NCBI GenBank assembly: GCA_030568195.1 | Contig: JAJLTO010000012.1 | Span: forward strand, 470,381 to 534,380 | Origin: Dipodascopsis uninucleata var. uninucleata | Lineage: Eukaryota; Ascomycota; Lipomycetes; Lipomycetales; Lipomycetaceae | Length of the DNA: 64,000 nucleotides | Direction of reading: 5' to 3' | Shown here: positions 4,920 through 64,000 of the stretch, piece by piece | How the letters are laid out: each line of letters starts with the position of its first letter | Numbering within the stretch: the first letter of the stretch is position 1 | Made by a program: the position numbers and the translations under genes | The notes under the pieces: generated by a model | Databases searched by the model: none | What the model was told of the DNA's origin: nothing | The model's input: the letters and a program-made list of their open reading frames with translations, nothing else

Positions 4920-6494
4920 TTACCATCCGAAAGATTCAGCACGGAATTCAACATTAACACCTTCCCATAGGAGATCAGAGGCAGCGTTTCTAGTAGCACG
5001 GACGATAGCAGCTGGACCACAAACAGCGATAGCGACAGGAACATTTTTGTCACCATTGCACTGCTCAACACACTCCATAATACTATCCTTAACATATTTG
5101 CGAATATCAGGACGACCTTGTTCCTTAGTAACCCAAAGCTTGAAGTCAACACCAAACTTCTCACTATCGAGATCAACCCAGTTACTAAAAGAACGATCAG
5201 GAACCACCCACAAAAAGTCAATTACTGGAACCATATCACCAATAGCAGTGGCAGACTTAATTATCTCGACAGCCTCTGGATAAGTATATGAAACACCTGC
5301 ACCACCAGCAATCAGAACCACCTTTCGGCATCCATCGAAATTAGCGTGAGTACCATAAGGTCCATGAACCTCAACAACATGCTCGCCCTCCGAGTTGAAA
5401 AGAGCACGAGAGAAACCCTTACGAGCACGAATAATGAGGTCCAAAGTCTCAGCCTCTGGTGGAGATGCAATAGTGAATGGATGCTTCTGGAAACGAGCGA
5501 GATTCTTGATTCCAATGTAGACATACTGGCCAGTAGTCCAGTGGAGCTGAGAGAAAGTAGTCTTTGGGTCCATGCAGAGCTTGACGGTGTCACCAGAAAG
5601 GTTCTTAGAGACACCAACAAGATGGTGGACATTCTTAAATCTGGTAACACGATCCCATATGAAGATAACAGCACAAGTAATAACATATGGACGAGTTCGA
5701 ATCCAGTGAAAGAACAAGAATGGCAGTGGCAAGACCAAGAACCAAACATGGAGGTACAAGAAAATCTCGTACAACTTGTTTCTCAAAGGAGCAAGAGAAG
5801 AAGCCAAGATAATACCAAAGCAGGTGGTAGCAATCAAACCGACAATAGCCTCATTGTTAATTTGGACACGGATGTTGATAGGGATAACAGCACAGTAGGC
5901 GAAAACATGGGCAATAGCAGTAATACAAACGACACGTCCTACGTGCTTATGTAAGATGATATATCCCTCATGGGACCAACCAGTGAGGTCAGCCAAGAGA
6001 CCAGTCTTCGAACCGAGAAGGAAAAGAATTGGCATGTTGACGATAGAAACCAAACCAACACGATTAGCAAAGATTTGGGTAGAAGCAGCTCCACCGTGAA
6101 TGAAAATATAAAGGATATTGAGGCCAAGATAACCAGCAATGATAAGCATGGTACCCCAAGACTCAGAGTATCTTCCAGCAGGCTGGTAAGTAAGGAAACC
6201 ATTAATTCTTCTAGAGAGTAAAGTCATCTTGCTCAAAGGCTTAGCTGGACCAGAATTAGATGGCATAAGAGGAGTCTTTTCGTTCAACGCACGACGAACG
6301 GTCTTCTTGAACTGAACAGTATAAAAGTGATGGAGACATGCTGCAACGAAGAAGAAGACGACAATGATGTTGTACGAGAGATAAAACTTTCGCGACCACT
6401 CACGTCCACGCTCATCAAACTCCTCCTGCTGAATGGCAGCCCATTCAGCAGCGGTATAGTTCATACCATTATATTCGTAGTACTCGGTAGTCAT
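4920..6494 (-). CDS. Compact ferric reductase-like transmembrane oxidoreductase (FRE/NOX family)
   Basis: A single exon of 524 residues; the first ATG in frame is at 6494 (MTTEYYEYNG), and longer versions rely on a TTG. One membrane span lies at about residues 38-60, then the ferric reductase core. Two histidine pairs are each spaced 14 apart, His182/His196 and His249/His263, the bis-heme arrangement. The FAD motif HPFTIAS is at 338-344, GPYG at 378, an NADPH glycine motif AGGAGVS near 396, and CGP at 492. Family role: electrons pass from NADPH through FAD and two hemes across a membrane to Fe(III), Cu(II) or oxygen. It lacks the signal peptide and Cys-rich ectodomain of the second FRE gene here (695 residues). 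GGAGVSYTYP departs from the usual GGxG(I/V)T. Whether it is a metal reductase or makes superoxide cannot be decided. Confidence 0.88.
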   Translation of the reverse strand: MTTEYYEYNGMNYTAAEWAAIQQEEFDERGREWSRKFYLSYNIIVVFFFVAACLHHFYTVQFKKTVRRALNEKTPLMPSNSGPAKPLSKMTLLSRRINGFLTYQPAGRYSESWGTMLIIAGYLGLNILYIFIHGGAASTQIFANRVGLVSIVNMPILFLLGSKTGLLADLTGWSHEGYIILHKHVGRVVCITAIAHVFAYCAVIPINIRVQINNEAIVGLIATTCFGIILASSLAPLRNKLYEIFLYLHVWFLVLPLPFLFFHWIRTRPYVITCAVIFIWDRVTRFKNVHHLVGVSKNLSGDTVKLCMDPKTTFSQLHWTTGQYVYIGIKNLARFQKHPFTIASPPEAETLDLIIRARKGFSRALFNSEGEHVVEVHGPYGTHANFDGCRKVVLIAGGAGVSYTYPEAVEIIKSATAIGDMVPVIDFLWVVPDRSFSNWVDLDSEKFGVDFKLWVTKEQGRPDIRKYVKDSIMECVEQCNGDKNVPVAIAVCGPAAIVRATRNAASDLLWEGVNVEFRAESFGW

Positions 6495-35244: not shown

Positions 35245-36891
35245 ATGGCGTTGGGCACTCTTGTTTTAAGTCAAGTAAACAGTTTCTTCCAAATAGCAAC
35301 AGAGCGTCCTCTTACTGCGTTAGCACTGACTATTCCAGCAATATTTTTGATCTATATTGTTATCAATGAAGTGATCAGAGTTAGTGCTCGGGTCTCTGGC
35401 TTCGATGGTCCAAGAGGATTCCCTTTACTTGGAAATATTCCTCAGATTCGCTATAATGCGTCTGAGCGCTACCGCTCTTGGGCAAAGAAATATGGCCCTG
35501 TTTATCAGATACAGTTAGGAAATATTCCGATCCTCGTCGTAAACAGCGCGGCGGCAGCACAGGAGATATTTGTTAAAAATTCCAACTCGACAATATCTAG
35601 ACCTATGTTCTACACTTTCCACAAGGTAAGTAGCGATCTATAGGCTGTATTTTGTAGATCATTATATACTGACTGTTTCTAGGTCGTGTCAACTACAGCA
35701 GGATTTACAATTGGAACTTCTCCATACGATGAGAGTTTGAAACGTCGAAGGAAAGCGGCTGCTAGTGCTCTAAATCGTCCTTCTGTGCAATCGTACACGC
35801 CCCACATTGACTTAGAAACTAAAGAGTTTATCAAGGACGCGTTTGAAATTGGAAAAAAGGGACAATTAGCAATTGATCCTCTTCCAATTGTGCAACGTCT
35901 CTCTCTTAATCTTAGTTTGACACTTAATTGGGGAACCAGAATTGATAGTGTCCATGATCCCCTTTTCGAGGAAATTACAGAGGTTGAGGAATATGTTTCT
36001 CGCTTTAGAAGTACAACAGGTAATTTACAAGACTACGTTCCGTTATTTCGCCTGAATCCCTTAAATGGAAGTTCTAAGCTCGCGCGAAGTATGAGAGCTC
36101 GCAGAGATGTCTACTTAAAACAAATGAATAGGGAGCTTGAAGAGAGAATAGCAAATAAGACTCATAAGCCTTGCATTCAGGCTAATATCCTTCTGGATCC
36201 AGAGGCTAAATTAGATGCCACAGAGCTAATGTCTATTTCACTGACTATGGTTTCTGGTGGATTGGATACAATTACCACTCTAGTCGCCTGGGCACTTCCA
36301 CTTCTCGCTGCACGACCAGATATCCAGAAGAAGGCACACGAGGCTATTCGAAACACATACTCTGAGAACGCTATTCTTTGTGATCCTCTAGAAGACCAGA
36401 AGTGTGCTTATGTTGTTGCTCTTGTTCGTGAATTGTTACGAATGTACACACCATTACGTCTTGCTCTTCCTAGAGTTACTGAGAAGGACTTCCGCACGCA
36501 AGGTAAGCTGATTCCAAAGGGAACTGTCGTCTTCCTCAATGCTTGGGCCTGCAATATGGACTCTGATTTGTGGACTGATCCGGAAGTATTCCGACCTGAG
36601 AGGTTCTTGGAGAAGCCAAACGCTCCAATCTTTACCTATGGGCAGGGCTCAAGAATGTGCGCGGGCTATCTTCTCGGAAATAGGGAGCTTTATCTATTGT
36701 TCATGAGAATAATCTCTTGCTTTGAGATTATGAAGGCTGATAATGTTGATTGCGATCCATTGACAGGATTATCAGATCCTACCAGTCTTGTGTCAACGCC
36801 AAAGCCATACAAGATAGTGTTCAGACCCCGAAATAAAGATGTCCTGGAACAGGCTATCTTGAATCACATACCGGTGACCGTACCTAAGTAA
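35245..36891 (+). CDS. Cytochrome P450, CYP504-like (phenylacetate hydroxylase family)
   Basis: Exons 35245-35625 and 35683-36891 join to 529 residues; the 57-nt intron (GTAAGT/CTAG) restores FHK-VVSTTAG in frame. An N-terminal membrane anchor lies at about 24-42, then FDGPRGFPLLGN. The I-helix reads MVSGGLDTITT, the K-helix has ELLRMYTPLR (ExxR), and the heme loop is FTYGQGSRMCAG with the cysteine ligand at about 453. The stretch TTAGFTIGTSPYDESLKRRR and LNRPSVQSY are, from memory, characteristic of the fungal CYP504 phenylacetate 2-hydroxylase and 3-hydroxyphenylacetate 6-hydroxylase group, which feeds aromatic acids into the homogentisate pathway. Which substrate is used cannot be told. 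It is flanked by a zinc-cluster regulator and, tail to tail, by an anion permease, suggesting a small catabolic cluster. Confidence 0.88.
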
Positions 36892-53549: not shown

Positions 53550-55637
53550 ATGTTGCAACATCGGCTACCACTGCTGTGTTCTGTGGTATTTGCACTCCTA
53601 GCATGTGTTGCTGAAGCTACTCGCTACGGTCCTGTCTGCGCAGAGGTCTGTCAGTCAACTTTCTACTATTACCCCACTGCATATGATAATTGTACGGATG
53701 GCACCTGCATTTGCAGTTCTCGGGTAGCGACCAGCTCCTACGCGTTATGTATCGATCATTATTGTGGACGTAAGAGGGACATTAAGCCAGCATTGAAGAT
53801 CGTAACTGAGTACTGCGAAGACTACCTAGTCGAGCTCGCCTATTCTTATGACGATGCCCTTGCTTATGGCAAGGAGCATATGTCAAATGAGATAGTTGAC
53901 GTAACAACTCAGGTTATGACTGTGCCGTTTCTTCTCTCAGAAGAGTATTATAGCACAAACTATAGATCGTATAAAACTTATTACGAGAATTTCGATTCCT
54001 CTGAGTATATGGGAATAGGAATTACTGCCTACTTTGTCATGTTCATGTTGCTTGCCTGCGCACGTCAGATTCTCATAAAGTTGTTCCCTCGATCAGTTCT
54101 CTGGCATAACAGATTCGTTACAAAGTTTAGAAAGTACTTTGTCATTCCTGCGTTTTTTGGAACAAAGCATGCTATTCCATCTAAACTCCTTGGAGTACCA
54201 CTAGGTCTCATGCCCACATCATACGAGGCACTCGTTTTGGCGGGATTCTTCTCTATTAGTATTATATTCTGCTTCGTTCACTACGACATTTTTGACAATG
54301 ATACTATCTTTGGTGATAGGAGAATGTTACTTTCCCGTGTTCTCGCTGACAGAACTGGCATTGTATCTTTTGGACACCTTCCTCTGTTGTACATATTTGG
54401 TGGAAGAAACAACATCTTCCGCTATATAACTGGCTGGTCAATGCAAACCTTTATGTTATATCATAGGTGGATTGCACGATCTATGTTCTTACATGCGGTT
54501 CTTCATTCTGTTGGATATACGGCATATGGCTTGCTCTATGGTGCTCCTACTTTCGCAACCTTTTTTTACGATGCTTACTTTCGTTGGGGTGTTGCGGCAA
54601 CCGTGATAGCAGGATTCGTTCTCATTCAAGCTACATACGTTTTGAGGCACCGTTGGTATGAAATTTTCTTGATATTGCATATTTTATTTGTCATAATGTT
54701 CACTGTTTCTCTTTGGTACCATTGTGATATTCTTGGCTACATGGAGTACGTGTATGCTTCCATTGCAATCTGGGCATTTGATCGGGCGGTTCGCTTGTTG
54801 CGTCTAGTAATGTATGGATCTATTACACCGTCTGGAACTAAGGCTAAGGCTTCAATTGTCGGTGAGATGATCGAGCTTAGCATTGACCCCCCAAAAGTCC
54901 CATGGCATATCAGACCAGGCCAGTACGCATACATTTATTTTGCTAAGTTCAAATTCTGGGAGTCTCATCCTTTCTCGCTCTTTGAGGTCCGTGATGGACG
55001 TCATATCTATGTCGCTAAACCTAAGGAAGGGATCACAAAGATGGTCTACAACTATCTTCAAAAGCAGCCTGAGAAGTCTGCCGTTATCCGATTAGGTGTT
55101 GAAGGACCATACGGTCATCACTTTGCCGTGGAAACATTTGACACAGTTCTGTTGATTGGAGGAGGTGTCGGTATTACTGCATTGATGATGTATGCTGTTC
55201 GAGCCAGGAAGCTTCGTGCCACTGGCCAACATGTTATAATATACTGGGCCACCAGGCACGAGACAAACATTACGTATGTTCGCCAGGCTCTCTCTGATCT
55301 TCTCTCCGGGGAAAATCCCATCGAACTTCACATCTACGTCACTAGCAAACAATATAATCATCTCAAAGAGACTGAGAAGAATTCTGTATCTGGAGAAGAC
55401 TCTCATTCTGAGAGTGAGAAGATCAATTTGGACGTTATTGAGTCTTCTGTTACCTATGGCCGACCTGATTTCGAAACTATTATTGAAAAGAGTATTCTAG
55501 AATCTTCTGGTTCGCTCATTGTAGCTGTTTGCGGTCCGGAACCTATTAACGATATTTGTAGAGCCGCTGTTGCAGTCAACTTGGACAAGGGAAGAGGACG
55601 TGTCGAATACTTTGAAGAGACGGGAATGTGGGCGTAA
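53550..55637 (+). CDS. Ferric reductase, FRE family, full length
   Basis: 695 residues in one exon. A signal peptide (about 1-22) is followed by a Cys-rich ectodomain to about 150 with eight or more cysteines (CAEVCQSTFYYYP, CTDGTCICSS), then a first span at about 155-178. The ferric-reductase core has histidine pairs His305/His319 and His377/His391, each 14 apart, for two hemes. FAD binding is at HPFSLFE (473), then EGPYG, the NADPH motif IGGGVGIT at 536-543, and a final CGPEP. Family role: plasma-membrane reduction of Fe(III) and Cu(II) before uptake. It differs from the 524-residue FRE protein at 4920-6494, which has no ectodomain, so the two are not recent duplicates. No iron-uptake partner (oxidase, permease or siderophore gene) is adjacent. 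Confidence 0.93.
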   Translation: MLQHRLPLLCSVVFALLACVAEATRYGPVCAEVCQSTFYYYPTAYDNCTDGTCICSSRVATSSYALCIDHYCGRKRDIKPALKIVTEYCEDYLVELAYSYDDALAYGKEHMSNEIVDVTTQVMTVPFLLSEEYYSTNYRSYKTYYENFDSSEYMGIGITAYFVMFMLLACARQILIKLFPRSVLWHNRFVTKFRKYFVIPAFFGTKHAIPSKLLGVPLGLMPTSYEALVLAGFFSISIIFCFVHYDIFDNDTIFGDRRMLLSRVLADRTGIVSFGHLPLLYIFGGRNNIFRYITGWSMQTFMLYHRWIARSMFLHAVLHSVGYTAYGLLYGAPTFATFFYDAYFRWGVAATVIAGFVLIQATYVLRHRWYEIFLILHILFVIMFTVSLWYHCDILGYMEYVYASIAIWAFDRAVRLLRLVMYGSITPSGTKAKASIVGEMIELSIDPPKVPWHIRPGQYAYIYFAKFKFWESHPFSLFEVRDGRHIYVAKPKEGITKMVYNYLQKQPEKSAVIRLGVEGPYGHHFAVETFDTVLLIGGGVGITALMMYAVRARKLRATGQHVIIYWATRHETNITYVRQALSDLLSGENPIELHIYVTSKQYNHLKETEKNSVSGEDSHSESEKINLDVIESSVTYGRPDFETIIEKSILESSGSLIVAVCGPEPINDICRAAVAVNLDKGRGRVEYFEETGMWA

Positions 55638-55819: not shown

Positions 55820-56981
55820 CTACTTGTCTTCGGGATATACTGTACCGCCATTCTGCAGTCTAGCCTCGTCCAAGAGACTCATAACGAACAATGACTCATT
55901 CCATGGCATAAGATCGTCTTGCTTTTTTCCGTTGGCAATGTCAAGGGCACAAGCATCAGCTTCAAAAAAGAATCCATATCCAGGAACTGTGTAATCGTAG
56001 AACTCATCCTCCTTGGTCGAATCATTGTACTTCACAGTTACTTGACGAGGCATACAAGTTTGAAGGCCTCCGACAATAATTTCACCTTTGGTTCCCTGAA
56101 TTGTCATAAATCGTGTGAAGTCAGTAGTATTATATGCTGAAAGAGTCAAGATTCCTTGCCGGCCAGTACTTGGATACTTCAAAACTACAGTAGCCATATT
56201 ATCTGCACCAGTCTTCGCAAGAGTAAAAGTGCCCTTCACCTCTGGCTTCTCCGAGTTATAGCCTAGATTTTTGTCTAGTGCCAACTTAGCCAAAGTCAGG
56301 TTATAAACACCCATATCGAGAAGAATTCCAGCACCCAGAGACAGATCTAGAAATCGGGAAGATTCAGGTCCCTCATACTCCTCTATAATATTAGAATAGT
56401 CTACATAAACACGTGTAACATCACCGATGACCTTCTCGTCATGAACCAACGACTGCATTTTGGCCACTGCAGGCATAAATCTTATCCACATGCCTTCCAT
56501 GAGAAAAACATTCTTTGCTTTCGCAGCATCGAACAAGGTCTTAGCAACCTTTTCATTGACAGTCACAGGTTTCTCGCAAAGGACATTTTTTCCGTGGGCA
56601 ATTGCGCTCAAAACTTCTTTAGGATGAAGAGAGTGCGGAGTAGCCACATAAACGATATCAACTTGGGGATCCGAATATACACCTTCATAGGATCCGTATG
56701 GTACAGGAGAGCTGGAAGTACAATTAGCTGCAATAAAACTCTTGGCACGTTCGAGCGATGATGATCCAACAGCTGAGATTATGTGGTTGGCCTTAGCATC
56801 TGGGCGATTGATTTGGAGGTCTTCGACGAACTGTGCAGCGATGTTTCCGGCACCTTTAAGAGGTTAGTAGGGCAATAGAATCCACTTCCATCAGAGATGG
56901 GTGTTCTCATATAGCGAGTCCAACACTTTATTTCTTACCAATAATTCCCCAGCGAAGGGTCGGAAGAGATGTATTAGTCAT
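55820..56981 (-). CDS. GFO/IDH/MocA oxidoreductase, dihydrodiol or D-xylose dehydrogenase (NADP) type
   Basis: Exons 56981-56939 and 56853-55820 join to 358 residues; the 85-nt intron has a perfect TACTAAC branch site and splits the Rossmann motif GIIGAGNIA (residues 12-20). Further motifs are VDIVYVATPHSLH, then NVLCEKPVTVN with the family EKP signature, FLMEGMWIRFMP, and GAGILLDMGVY. These match the dimeric dihydrodiol/D-xylose 1-dehydrogenase group. The expected reaction is NADP-dependent oxidation of a sugar or trans-dihydrodiol in the cytosol; the substrate is uncertain. The gene is complete with no missing key residues. It converges with the FRE gene, 182 bases apart. A TATA-like TATATATATA lies about 70 bases upstream. 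Confidence 0.9.
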
Positions 56982-58284: not shown

Positions 58285-59724
58285 ATGAGTTTTCCAAGGG
58301 CATCTTCCAGTGAGCATGGCTTGAGCGACAAAGCTTTAGGCAAGTTTGTATCTACGCTTGAAGAAGTAAATGGCCATTCTTTCATGCTCATTAAGAAAGG
58401 ATTTGTCATTGCAGAGGGCTGGTGGGCTCCGTACAAATCAGAATATCTTCATACCATGTTCTCGGTCACTAAAAGTTTCACCTCGATTGCAATTGGTTTT
58501 GCCGTTGATGAGGGCCGCTTATCAGTTGAAGACAAGATTTTGTCCTTCTTCGAGGGTGTGCTTCCATCAAAACCATGCGAGAATATGCAAAAAATCACTG
58601 TTAAAAACTTACTGACAATGTCTTCCGGTCATACCGGTGAATTGGACATCGGATGGAATGTCTGGGCGTATGATGTTAGTGCGAGAGGCCGTGAGATTGA
58701 CCACGTCTACGAGTTTTTGACGTCATATGTTCCAGTCGCGCCAGGAACTGAATTTCATTACAATACGAGTGCAACTTATATGCTTGGTGTCATTCTTACC
58801 AAGTTAACTGGATTGAGTGTACTCGAGTACTTGAAGCCTCGTCTTTTGGAGCCACTGGGCATTGCCGAGCTCACCAGCGAAAGTGATTCCAAAGGATATG
58901 GTACCGCTGGCTTTGGATTTCAAACTCGCACAGAGGATCTTGCCAAATTTTGTACGTTCCTGCTACACAAGGGGAAATGGAATGGCCACCAATTGCTTTC
59001 TGAAGAATGGGTTGAGCAAGCGACAAAGAAACAAATTGAGACTGTTCCAACTACTTTAGAGAAGAACCCACAGTACAAAGCTGGATATGGCTATCAGTTC
59101 TGGAGATGTTCAGATAGTGATATTTTTCGTGCTGATGGACTTTGGGGACAATATGGATATGTGTGCCCTTCCAAGGATCTTGTTCTGGTGGTTACTGCGG
59201 GATCAACTGCAACTAGCTTAATTCTAGATGCCGCGCTCGAACTTATTGAGACTGGATTCGAGACAACCAGCGAAGCAAAAGTTGGAATGTCCGAAACATT
59301 ATCTCATCTCAGTATTAAAGGTGTTAGCGGCGTACCCATCAGCTCAAAACCGTTGAAACTGAACTTCCGAATTTCCAAGAATCCAATTCTTATTGATACA
59401 ATGGAAATTGACACTATATCGAAGACTATTAGCTTTTCCAAAAAAGGTGGAGACTATTCGTTCGCGATTGGGGAAGGTCAATGGATTGATACCAAGATAG
59501 CTGACGATCCTGACGGAATGGCCGATTACCTTGGAGATGTTGCCTGCTCTGGAGCCTGGATCGGATCGCAGCTCGTTCTTAAAATTGTTCACACGAGAAC
59601 TCCATATACTGATACCCTTAAGTTTGATATTACAGACACTACTCTATTGTGCCATTTTTCTAGATATCCGTTCCTTGATACATTTGAGCATGAATGGGAG
59701 GTTTTAGGCATCAGAATCGATTAA
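58285..59724 (+). CDS. Beta-lactamase-fold serine hydrolase
   Basis: 479 residues, one exon, no signal peptide. The N-terminal 330 residues have the class C beta-lactamase/penicillin-binding-protein fold: catalytic SVTK at 60-63 in MFSVTKSFTS, the YNTSATYML motif (Tyr159) in place of YxN, and a third motif near GLWGQYGYV where many esterase members have GxxGQ. LLTMSSGH is also typical. The C-terminal 130 residues form a beta-rich extension I do not recognise. Known relatives are esterases, amidases and oligomer hydrolases, mostly bacterial, with scattered fungal members; the substrate is unknown. Intron-free in a subtelomere, it is a candidate for horizontal transfer. It is not evidence of antibiotic resistance. 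Confidence 0.85.
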   Translation: MSFPRASSSEHGLSDKALGKFVSTLEEVNGHSFMLIKKGFVIAEGWWAPYKSEYLHTMFSVTKSFTSIAIGFAVDEGRLSVEDKILSFFEGVLPSKPCENMQKITVKNLLTMSSGHTGELDIGWNVWAYDVSARGREIDHVYEFLTSYVPVAPGTEFHYNTSATYMLGVILTKLTGLSVLEYLKPRLLEPLGIAELTSESDSKGYGTAGFGFQTRTEDLAKFCTFLLHKGKWNGHQLLSEEWVEQATKKQIETVPTTLEKNPQYKAGYGYQFWRCSDSDIFRADGLWGQYGYVCPSKDLVLVVTAGSTATSLILDAALELIETGFETTSEAKVGMSETLSHLSIKGVSGVPISSKPLKLNFRISKNPILIDTMEIDTISKTISFSKKGGDYSFAIGEGQWIDTKIADDPDGMADYLGDVACSGAWIGSQLVLKIVHTRTPYTDTLKFDITDTTLLCHFSRYPFLDTFEHEWEVLGIRID

Positions 59725-61511
59725 GTTATTAGGGTGTTCGAAATCTAGAAATTGATTACATTAAAATTATAGACGTTTCTAGGAAAATGTAAAGTAATCT
59801 ATTAGTTCGGATATTGCTCGCTGGTCTAGATTAATCAAGCTACATTCTTCGTAAGAAAGAAAATATGGCTCTAAGACTTAATGACTGTATTCATGTATGT
59901 TTCCTGTAGTTTATCCCTAGTGCATTATGTAAATATTTATCTCGATAATTATGATGAATTTGTCGTTATCCTGTTTGTTCGACTATTTCTGGTGAAGTTA
60001 ACGTTTCGTAAATTCTAGGAGATTTCCAGTGTGTGTCTGAATATCTTGAAGTGTACAGCAATTCGCTACAGTGTGTGATATTTGGTAGCTAAAATAACTC
60101 ATGTAAACAGTAACATAAAGGAATTTATGGTTAATATACGCTTGATATTAGTTTGTAACTACTGATGTCATTTTGGGGCTAAGGTATATCGCGTATCTGT
60201 TACTACACACTTCTATAATAATATGTATAGCAGTCTCTCATTCTATCAAAAAAGTTGATATTCATAGGCCCATTGATTCAGCTGGTACCTTATCAGTTTA
60301 ATGGGCTTTGTTATATATGATAGTCTCTATTTCATGGCACTTAAATCAGTAATTAATGGAGCATCAGAGTCCAACACGGTGGACTGGCAATACGTTATAA
60401 GTTTAATCGAACATTAGTTTTCAGTGAGCACGTTCAATTATAGTTTAACTGGTAAATCATTGTCTCGATATTAAACCCTTGATGAATATAGCTCATCCAA
60501 AGTGAATACACACGCTTCCCGCCACTAAAGTAGATATTGATGTAGAGACTGTGTAAGAAACTACGGGAAGATCCATAGCTGCCAAGATAATATACAGTGA
60601 CAAACTACTCTGATCTTTATTTGGTTGAACTTTACACCATGGTTAAGAATATACTAACTAAACATTATTATAACTTAACTCTATTCCGCAGTAAATAGTA
60701 CATTTCCAGCATGTAGTGATTAATGTGCTCGACATCGCAAAATTTATATTTTCTATTGATTTTTAAGAAATGTAACTGGATATATAATTCTCTATGTATG
60801 ATTCTTTATCTATATCAGCTTCCCCTTAGTAGAACTTTTACTAATTTTATGTTCGTGTTATGTACCAGTACGAACCACTACGATATGAATTGTAGTAGAG
60901 GAAGTCGAGAGTTTTTGTGAACTCTCGTCTCTTTTACCGAAGTAACGGGGCAGATAACAGCATTCACGGTTCAGTAAAATAGACAGTGTGATGGTCAAAT
61001 AGCTACAAGTATAGCCAACTGCAAACGTCTCCTGAATTGCACGAGGGTAAAGATGTACCTATAAAGTATATTACTAATTCGAGACTCTTCACGTTTAAGC
61101 TCCCGCATATGTTCGTAGGACTGAAGTCCAATGATCCACCAAAGTACTGGATGCTATAAATTAAGAGCACCCGCAGGGGTTTAGGTGGATCATTACTGAT
61201 TATATGATGATTCTCCAATTGTAAATGATAATTTTGATGTTCGATACTTTAGAATTTTAGACATTTAGGCTAGTCAAGTTGATGTTGCCGTAAGAACTGA
61301 AAGACTGTACATGAAAATACGATATAATGAAATATCGCAAGCTAGATTTCTAAAGTACAGTGAAACTTGCGTTTTATGCAGCAGAGTAGAATTTCACATC
61401 ATGTACGGTTGAAAGATATATAAATATATTAGCTCATTTGCACTGTATTATCCATCTCATAATCAATATTACTGGAGACTCTCGAAACGTATTCCTAAAA
61501 ACCTATTACCA
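59725..61511. other. 1.8-kb gap before the terpene synthase
   Basis: AT-rich, with no recognisable gene. It ends with the terpene synthase promoter, including TATATAAATA at 61417-61426. Frames at 60723-60920 (+) and 61003-61218 (-) are unsupported. Confidence 0.5.
61417..61426 (+). promoter_or_regulatory. TATA box of the terpene synthase gene
   Basis: TATATAAATA about 90 bases before the start codon at 61512. Confidence 0.45.
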
Positions 61512-62483
61512 ATGGATCCAAAAACGTACGGAAAATGCAAGCAAATTATCTTAAACTACTGTCATAACAGACCCTTTATATCAAAGCTTCAGTATAAGAT
61601 ATTATATGAAAAAGAGATTGAAGAGTACATTCTCAGCCTTGACATTTCGCCGAGGATAAAATCAAATGCAAAGTTCTTCGCCTTTCATGGTGTAGTAGCT
61701 GCGTGCTGCTTTTACCGTTACTTTATTGATAGATTACCTGACTACGTATATCTTATAGCGAAGTATACTGCTCTTATTGTCGCACTTGATGACACTCCTG
61801 AGATTTTAGCTGAGATTGACTTTGGTCTCAAGGAATTCAATGAAGGAAAAGAAATCAGCTCTACTTTGATCCGAGAGCTGTTCAAACATAATGCAGAATT
61901 ATGTACTTATTATGATGCCTACGGTGCCTCTGCATTGACAGCAAGTACGTTACATTACGTTTCTACGTTACTGGTAGAGCCGACTCTCAAGATTCGCTTT
62001 GTTAGTGATGAAATGGCCTTCTTCTTTCGCTGGAAGACTGCAATCACCGAAGCATATCTGCAGTTTCTCTTTCCTCTAAAGGCCCTTGAGCATACTGACA
62101 TAAATTACGACTATATTAATCTCATACCGCTGCTTGGATACCATATTGGTGCTGAGAATGATATTTTATCGTTTTATAAAGAGTCAATGGCTGGTAAGGA
62201 ATTTAATACTAGAATGTGGCTAGAAGCGACAAGATATAATGGCGATGTCAGCAAAGCTCTAGATATTATTTCTTCAAAGAGCTTGAAATCTTTTAAAGAA
62301 GCGATAGCACTTACAGAAGATATGCATCCTGTGATCAAACAAATTGTACTCGAATACTCTGAAGGATATTGCGCTTTCCATTTCATCTGCACACGGTACC
62401 GTATGCAGGAGCTCACGCCAAATGTTCTAACCAATATTGGCGAAACTTATCCTATTTATATTCTTGATTTAGAAAAAGCATGA
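61512..62483 (+). CDS. Class I terpene synthase, trichodiene-synthase-like
   Basis: 323 residues in one exon, all-helical in character. The aspartate-rich motif is LDDTPE at 92-97, a variant of DDxxD/E. The second metal motif is intact: AENDILSFYKE, with Asn216, Ser220 and Glu224 of the NSE triad; it closely resembles NDLMSFYKE of trichodiene synthase (TRI5) as I recall it. RY at 295-296, about 80 residues later, matches the diphosphate-sensing pair of this class. The predicted reaction is Mg-dependent ionisation and cyclisation of farnesyl diphosphate to a sesquiterpene; the product is unknown. It is about 50 residues shorter than TRI5, and no trichothecene-pathway neighbours are present, so a trichothecene role is not supported. 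Such enzymes are rare in budding yeasts. The gene lies about 1.4 kb from the telomere. Confidence 0.82.
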   Translation: MDPKTYGKCKQIILNYCHNRPFISKLQYKILYEKEIEEYILSLDISPRIKSNAKFFAFHGVVAACCFYRYFIDRLPDYVYLIAKYTALIVALDDTPEILAEIDFGLKEFNEGKEISSTLIRELFKHNAELCTYYDAYGASALTASTLHYVSTLLVEPTLKIRFVSDEMAFFFRWKTAITEAYLQFLFPLKALEHTDINYDYINLIPLLGYHIGAENDILSFYKESMAGKEFNTRMWLEATRYNGDVSKALDIISSKSLKSFKEAIALTEDMHPVIKQIVLEYSEGYCAFHFICTRYRMQELTPNVLTNIGETYPIYILDLEKA

Positions 62484-63429: not shown

Positions 63430-63874
63430 ATGGCAGAAATATCGATTTCGGCAGATCGTTTGACCTGGAAAGGAAGGCGGAGCAGGCGAGGTCTGGATAA
63501 GCTGCACGAACAGGGTGGTGGTGTTTTCTAGTATTTAGGGGTGAGATCGACTGAGCATAGCCATCTATGGGGAAGTCGGGAACGAGAAAATGGTAGCTAG
63601 ACAGGCAGTAGTGGATAGATGTCCATGTTTTCGCACTAGCGAAGGCGCCATGGAGAATGAGATTGTTGAAGGCGGTCCGGGTTACATAGGGTTAAATACT
63701 AAATAGACAGTTAAGAGAGGAAGATGAACCGAAAGAGTAGGTGGTTATAGATAGATATGTATTGATTAGCTATAAACTGCAATTTTCACTCGTGTAGGAA
63801 GCAATAGGCGCGCTTGAATATGTTTTCGGGGTCTCTTCAGGGATTTTGAGGAAAGTAGAGAACAGACAGAAAAG
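63430..63874. other. Telomere-adjacent sequence
   Basis: Non-repetitive sequence between the last coding region and the telomere. It contains one and a half telomere units at 63679-63694. No Y'-like helicase or long repeat is seen, so this end has almost no subtelomeric repeat block inside the window. Confidence 0.5.
63679..63694 (+). repeat. Interstitial telomere-repeat fragment
   Basis: GGGTTACATAGGGTTA, one full unit plus six bases, in the same orientation as the terminal array and 183 bases before it. Confidence 0.9.
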
Positions 63875-63876
63875 TA

Positions 63877-64000
63877 GGGTTACATAGGGTTACATAGGGT
63901 TACATAGGGTTACATAGGGTTACATAGGGTTACATAGGGTTACATAGGGTTACATAGGGTTACATAGGGTTACATAGGGTTACATAGGGTTACATAGGGT
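63877..64000 (+). repeat. Telomeric array, unit GGGTTACATA
   Basis: About 12.4 exact head-to-tail copies of the 10-base unit run to the end of the window, with no variants seen. The G-rich strand runs 5' to 3' outward, as required at a right chromosome end. A 10-base unit starting GGGTTA is reminiscent of Yarrowia (GGGTTAGTCA), but the last four bases differ. Confidence 0.97.

Follow-up and report, generated by a model that had tools for sequence, protein, structure and literature searches.

The last 64,000 bases of contig JAJLTO010000012.1 from Dipodascopsis uninucleata var. uninucleata (the window; the contig, C12 in our numbering, has 534380 bases, in a genome of 16.2 Mb and 25 contigs) contain a gene whose product is very likely a functional TRI5-family sesquiterpene synthase of class I, this level of confidence being given for the enzyme class. 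The protein belongs to this family by profile search, has the corresponding predicted fold and the expected metal- and diphosphate-binding residues, is matched once in the genome, and is encoded near a chromosome end by a frame found in two records of the species.

The open reading frame (ORF) at 61512-62483 has 323 codons, opens at the first in-frame ATG and is closed by a stop codon; it lies inside a stop-free frame of 356 codons. The longest stop-free frame arising by chance had 217 codons (1.92 Mb simulated as 300 sequences of 6.4 kb under a second-order Markov model trained on positions 1-61000 of the window). A sequence-only reading of this DNA had described such a frame with the motifs DDTPE and NDILSFYKE and a C-terminal RY pair, all of which we found as described (Table 1). 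It had also proposed a class I terpene cyclase, and the profile search agrees: PF06330 (TRI5) was the sole Pfam-A family recovered at E-values up to 10 (E 1.7e-12; 47.4 bits, curated cut-off 25.2), with residues 83-302 aligned to positions 88-309 of the 362 in the profile. NCBIfam contained no family matching the protein at E-values up to 1. Searches of the genome with the protein and with the PF06330 profile returned one match each, in both cases this gene.

The predicted structure is a helical alpha fold, as the earlier reading expected, and resembles TRI5-family structures more than it does other class I cyclases. Nearly every one of the 17 top rows in the structure comparison pairs the model with a solved TRI5-family cyclase starting at residue 1 or 2 and reaching at least residue 303, so no intron is needed and the proposed single exon stands. 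Residues R173, K223, R295 and Y296 align with R182, K232, R304 and Y305 of trichodiene synthase (PDB 1jfa), and the R173/R182 position is presumably a diphosphate ligand. A second D. uninucleata database protein, named 'isoprenoid synthase domain-containing protein [Dipodascopsis uninucleata]' and encoded on a contig of 535179 bases, is identical at 322 of 323 residues (the difference being I218V); the frame is intact in both records, which may represent one strain or two.

Table 1. Features of the window, with positions counted from its first base.
Feature	Position	Strand	Details
Gene for predicted TRI5-family class I sesquiterpene cyclase	61512..62483	+	single exon, 323 aa; ORF, Pfam, structure comparison
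Aspartate-rich metal motif D93-D94-T-P-E97 (DDxxE)	61788..61802	+	DDTPE, residues 93-97
NSE triad N216-D-I-L-S220-F-Y-K223-E224	62157..62183	+	NDILSFYKE, residues 216-224
R173	62028..62030	+	aligned with R182 of trichodiene synthase; identical in 25/25 relatives
C-terminal R295-Y296 pair	62394..62399	+	aligned with R304-Y305 of trichodiene synthase
TATA-like stretch, candidate promoter element	61416..61429	+	82-96 bases before start codon; read by eye
PF00144 beta-lactamase-fold serine hydrolase	58285..59724	+	nearest upstream gene found; single exon, 1.8 kb from cyclase gene
GFO/IDH/MocA-type oxidoreductase	frame 55820-56863		upstream
Ferric reductase	53550-55637		upstream
Nearest P450 gene found	about 35245-36891		two exons; intron about 35626-35682, read by eye
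Telomere array	63875..64000	+	126 bases, 12.6 perfect copies of the 10-mer TAGGGTTACA, up to contig end
Subtelomeric element, ~190 bases	63678..63870	.	beside telomere array; 73-93% match, whole or partial, on eight other contigs

Solved relatives and proposed mechanism

In a single-sequence search of solved structures, longiborneol synthase CLM1 scored highest (33.9 bits), followed by SydA (29.2 bits) and trichodiene synthase TRI5 (22.2 bits), and the family profile gave the same order. The description 'trichodiene-synthase-like' in the sequence-only reading is therefore right as to the family and too narrow as a label, TRI5 being 16.1% identical to the cyclase in the tree alignment. Unlike the TRI5 locus, the window has no trichothecene-type neighbor genes among the ORFs scanned. 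CLM1 (PDB 8h4p) is 20.1% identical in the same alignment and has DDAEA at the first metal site, where the cyclase has DDTPE. The sesquiterpene synthase SydA (PDB 8yzx, 8yzu, 8yzy), which no paper in the literature searched paired with that activity, is 20% identical over the superposition and 21.5% in the tree alignment, and has DEDYL at this site. In Trichoderma, the TRI5 superfamily is divided into TRI5, longiborneol synthases and two uncharacterised groups in PMC7603203.

Class I cyclases share two metal motifs, a trinuclear Mg2+ cluster and basic residues on the diphosphate, as set out in PMC10563020, and from this established chemistry we infer that the protein is catalytically active and ionises farnesyl diphosphate (FPP) as its substrate. 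Three Mg2+ ions, held by D93 of the DDxxE motif and by N216, S220 and E224, would bind the diphosphate of FPP, over which R173, K223, R295 and Y296 would close. The diphosphate would depart and shift to give nerolidyl diphosphate, the allylic cation would close 1,6 to the bisabolyl cation, and the latter may be quenched or further cyclised to a hydrocarbon or alcohol. The FPP would be supplied by prenyl diphosphate synthases of the organism itself, which is plausible given that matches to such synthases occur at three loci in the genome. The bisabolyl route is our best guess, and we lean slightly towards it, because trichodiene synthase and CLM1 both proceed via nerolidyl diphosphate and the bisabolyl cation. 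The ligand in the CLM1 crystal is described as a bisabolyl-cation mimic in PMC10563020. The cyclase probably works alone, either releasing a volatile or giving a product that is modified by enzymes encoded elsewhere.

Relatives and origin of the gene

A single-sequence search covering about 5.8 billion proteins, which requires shared five-residue words, returned only D. uninucleata itself and one Mycena protein (E 1.1e-5) at E ≤ 1. When the Mycena protein was added to the query, 26 proteins were obtained at E ≤ 10. Of these, 18 carried names that we take to be those of Agaricomycetes, two were from Pyronema, one was that of the species itself, and the other five were metagenome proteins, unnamed or called 'hypothetical'. 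A third search (A3) gave five proteins from 7997 scored, two of them new, and hardly widened the sample. No other yeasts were present among the organism-named matches of these searches, with the presence of Lipomycetales in the database unchecked. The nearest database matches are unassigned TRI5-family proteins, some from Pyronema and some from Agaricomycetes (Mycena, Tetrapyrgos, Volvariella, Punctularia and others), which match PF06330 as the cyclase does and are 19-25% identical to it in the tree alignment. Both Pyronema proteins, P0023 and P0024, retain the NSE triad and the RY pair and have an eroded first metal site (ENVTE and DNVIA), perhaps reflecting unusual metal binding.

Phylogeny was reconstructed from 26 rows, consisting of 23 of the 28 rows of the A4 alignment and three solved structures; P0018, P0021, P0022, P0025 and P0026 were left out as short or metagenome fragments, as was P0002, a near-copy not in A4. 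The end branch of the cyclase is 4.29 changes per column in this tree, and the tree tool warns that so long a row may be misplaced or wrongly shut out of a clade. Metagenome protein P0029 (400 aa), itself of the TRI5 family, groups with SydA (96/81).

One explanation of the origin, compatible with the enzyme assignment, is that a TRI5-type cyclase of early Ascomycota has been kept here and lost in other yeasts; we give this close to an even chance. The host belongs to the Lipomycetes (Ascomycota, Saccharomycotina, Lipomycetales), the earliest, hyphal branch of Saccharomycotina, and Dipodascopsis is filamentous. The term 'budding yeast' in the sequence-only reading accordingly holds at the level of Saccharomycotina and needs qualification for a Lipomycete, in which a gene of filamentous fungi is less surprising than in Saccharomyces. 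Long isolation would fit the very long branch and the lack of near relatives, and a starred branch (98/97) unites the 17 Agaricomycete rows without the cyclase, placing it beside their clade rather than within it. A group with the Pezizomycete Pyronema was not rejected (p 0.185), nor was it with TRI5 and CLM1 left out (p 0.133; p 0.169 for a group with Pyronema, SydA and P0029). Against retention, the best tree places the cyclase away from the ascomycete proteins, and a single clade of all six ascomycete rows was rejected (p 0.0037), although paralogues within the family could cause this rejection. Retention also requires repeated loss in other yeasts.

Alternatively, the gene may have entered the Dipodascopsis lineage at a chromosome end by an old horizontal transfer from a filamentous fungus, either an Agaricomycete or a member of the Pezizomycotina, which we regard as possible and somewhat doubtful. 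The lone Mycena match of the single-sequence search is consistent with transfer, as is the position of the cyclase beside the 17 Agaricomycete rows (support 91/87, below the tree tool's star), which did not change when TRI5, or TRI5 and CLM1, were removed. The gene is also subtelomeric and intronless, and its GC content (37.8%) is the lowest of 16 ORFs. However, its third-position GC does not fall outside that of the other ORFs, and the surrounding DNA is likewise AT-rich; base composition does not settle the origin. The cyclase lies outside the sampled Agaricomycete clade, subject to the warning about long rows, and its union with SydA and P0029 (p 0.175), with TRI5 (p 0.188, for the one trichodiene synthase row, which the best tree separates from it) or with CLM1 (p 0.064) was not rejected, any more than that with Pyronema. 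The sample of relatives is moreover biased by the Mycena sequence in the query. A phylogeny including TRI5 and longiborneol synthase, as envisaged in the sequence-only reading, thus yields an Agaricomycete neighbor and leaves transfer and retention undecided.

A bacterial or viral origin found no confirmation. A scan of genome_contigs with A4 gave three pattern matches, none confirmed, a single peptide pattern being weak evidence, and a scan of viral contigs gave five, none confirmed. In the viral structure library nothing matched at E ≤ 0.001; the top hit was an Orpheovirus terpenoid synthase (E 0.01).

Neighboring genes and the chromosome end

The PF00144 protein encoded upstream, which has one match in the genome, is the sole neighbor found that might be a pathway partner, as judged only from its position. 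A two-gene pathway of cyclisation followed by acyl transfer or hydrolysis is improbable: the two genes share a strand and PF00144-fold acyltransferases such as LovD act in fungal secondary metabolism, but the genes are 1.8 kb apart, and the best solved relatives of the neighbor (Lsa45, a beta-lactamase-related serine hydrolase, and 6-aminohexanoate-dimer hydrolases) leave an acyltransferase role without support, the name LovD being absent among the 43 molecules listed. The best NCBIfam model for this protein is a bacterial 3-succinylated cholic acid synthase (221.7 bits, far under its cut-off of 800), and the gene might have bacterial ancestry.

In line with the sequence-only reading, no P450 gene was found next to the cyclase in the ORF scans; the nearest P450 match is 24.6 kb away, close to the 25 kb given there. 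In all, five P450 loci were located in the genome, this one included. We take this P450 to resemble CYP504-type phenylacetate hydroxylases, and the best solved relative of the 266-codon ORF in its second exon is sugiol synthase. Two ferric reductase genes are present in the subtelomeric window (4920-6494 and 53550-55637), and Rfam at gathering thresholds matched nothing within it. On another contig, six condensation-domain matches over 11 kb (G000:C11:156413-167330) point to a large nonribosomal peptide synthetase, possibly a siderophore synthetase.

The placement of the gene at a yeast chromosome end, 1.4 kb from the telomere, agrees with our measurement of 1.39 kb from its stop codon (62483) to the first telomere unit (63875). 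The repeat is also present at or near other contig ends. Across the genome, 30-base stretches of the TAGGGTTACA repeat gave 91 forward and 83 reverse matches, compared with 0 and 0 for a reversed control pattern; among the matches listed, the minus-strand arrays of contigs C7, C9 and C11 have base 1 or 4 as their first position, and C5, C8, C10, C12 and C14 carry plus-strand arrays. Assembly contamination was rejected, because the terminal repeat of C12 is the telomere repeat of other contigs too and the second D. uninucleata record carries the gene on its 535 kb contig. Between 62985 and 63691, three minus-strand stop-free frames (80, 97 and 90 codons) had no Pfam match at E-values up to 10 in a search confined to that strand; their GC fraction is 0.43-0.47, compared with 0.36 in the preceding intergenic DNA, and they are perhaps gene remains.

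Weight of the assignment and implications for the host

Several observations weigh against the assignment of a working sesquiterpene synthase. The synonymous codon bias of the gene (0.039) is the second lowest of the 16 ORFs and close to that of an off-frame reading of the same gene (0.035, a control made on this gene alone), so codon usage offers no argument for constraint. The cyclase is 16-25% identical to its 25 relatives over the tree alignment, and the best local identity is 30%, to Pyronema over 72-75% of the query; at such low values, substrate and product cannot be transferred from the relatives. No cluster of tailoring genes was seen near the cyclase in ORF scans, in which genes of many short exons could be missed. 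A decaying pseudogene or inactive relic, with which the subtelomeric position, orphan status and weak codon bias would agree, is nevertheless quite unlikely given the full-length frame in two records and the complete set of catalytic residues.

We know of no native sesquiterpene cyclase described in budding yeasts. Calls of 'terpene' gene clusters are commonly triggered by squalene synthase. Such calls, made by fungiSMASH, are reported for leaf yeasts in PMC12866564, including one in Metschnikowia and Candida; apart from them, no terpene synthase of Dipodascopsis, Lipomyces, Lipomycetaceae or other Saccharomycotina was reported in the literature searched, with subscription journals largely uncovered. 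D. uninucleata Phaff 50-6 was genome-sequenced in PMC11024372, the main text of which does not mention terpen-, secondary metabol-, biosynthetic gene cluster or antiSMASH. A cyclase of a different type, the PF19086-type BcStc3, is described as absent from Saccharomycotina in PMC11120764; our PF19086 scan of the genome found nothing, and since control genomes were equally silent, this does not establish absence.

The TRI5 family is known best from moulds and mushrooms, and a basal yeast is an unexpected host. The intact-looking cyclase suggests that D. uninucleata can make a sesquiterpene. We tentatively picture the species as a native sesquiterpene producer among budding yeasts, whose enzyme would represent a deep, otherwise unsampled TRI5 branch, kept or anciently acquired by this species alone, and would make a volatile or signal from a single gene without a cluster. 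The proposed mechanism is a familiar one. It is the taxonomic position of the host, together with a sequence so isolated, that makes this cyclase worth an assay. Budding yeasts are favored hosts for producing plant and fungal terpenes, and an enzyme so divergent (at most 25% identical to any row of the tree) is of use for product discovery. A cyclase in a basal yeast also makes it testable whether such enzymes disappeared early in the history of the yeasts or were brought in by transfer.
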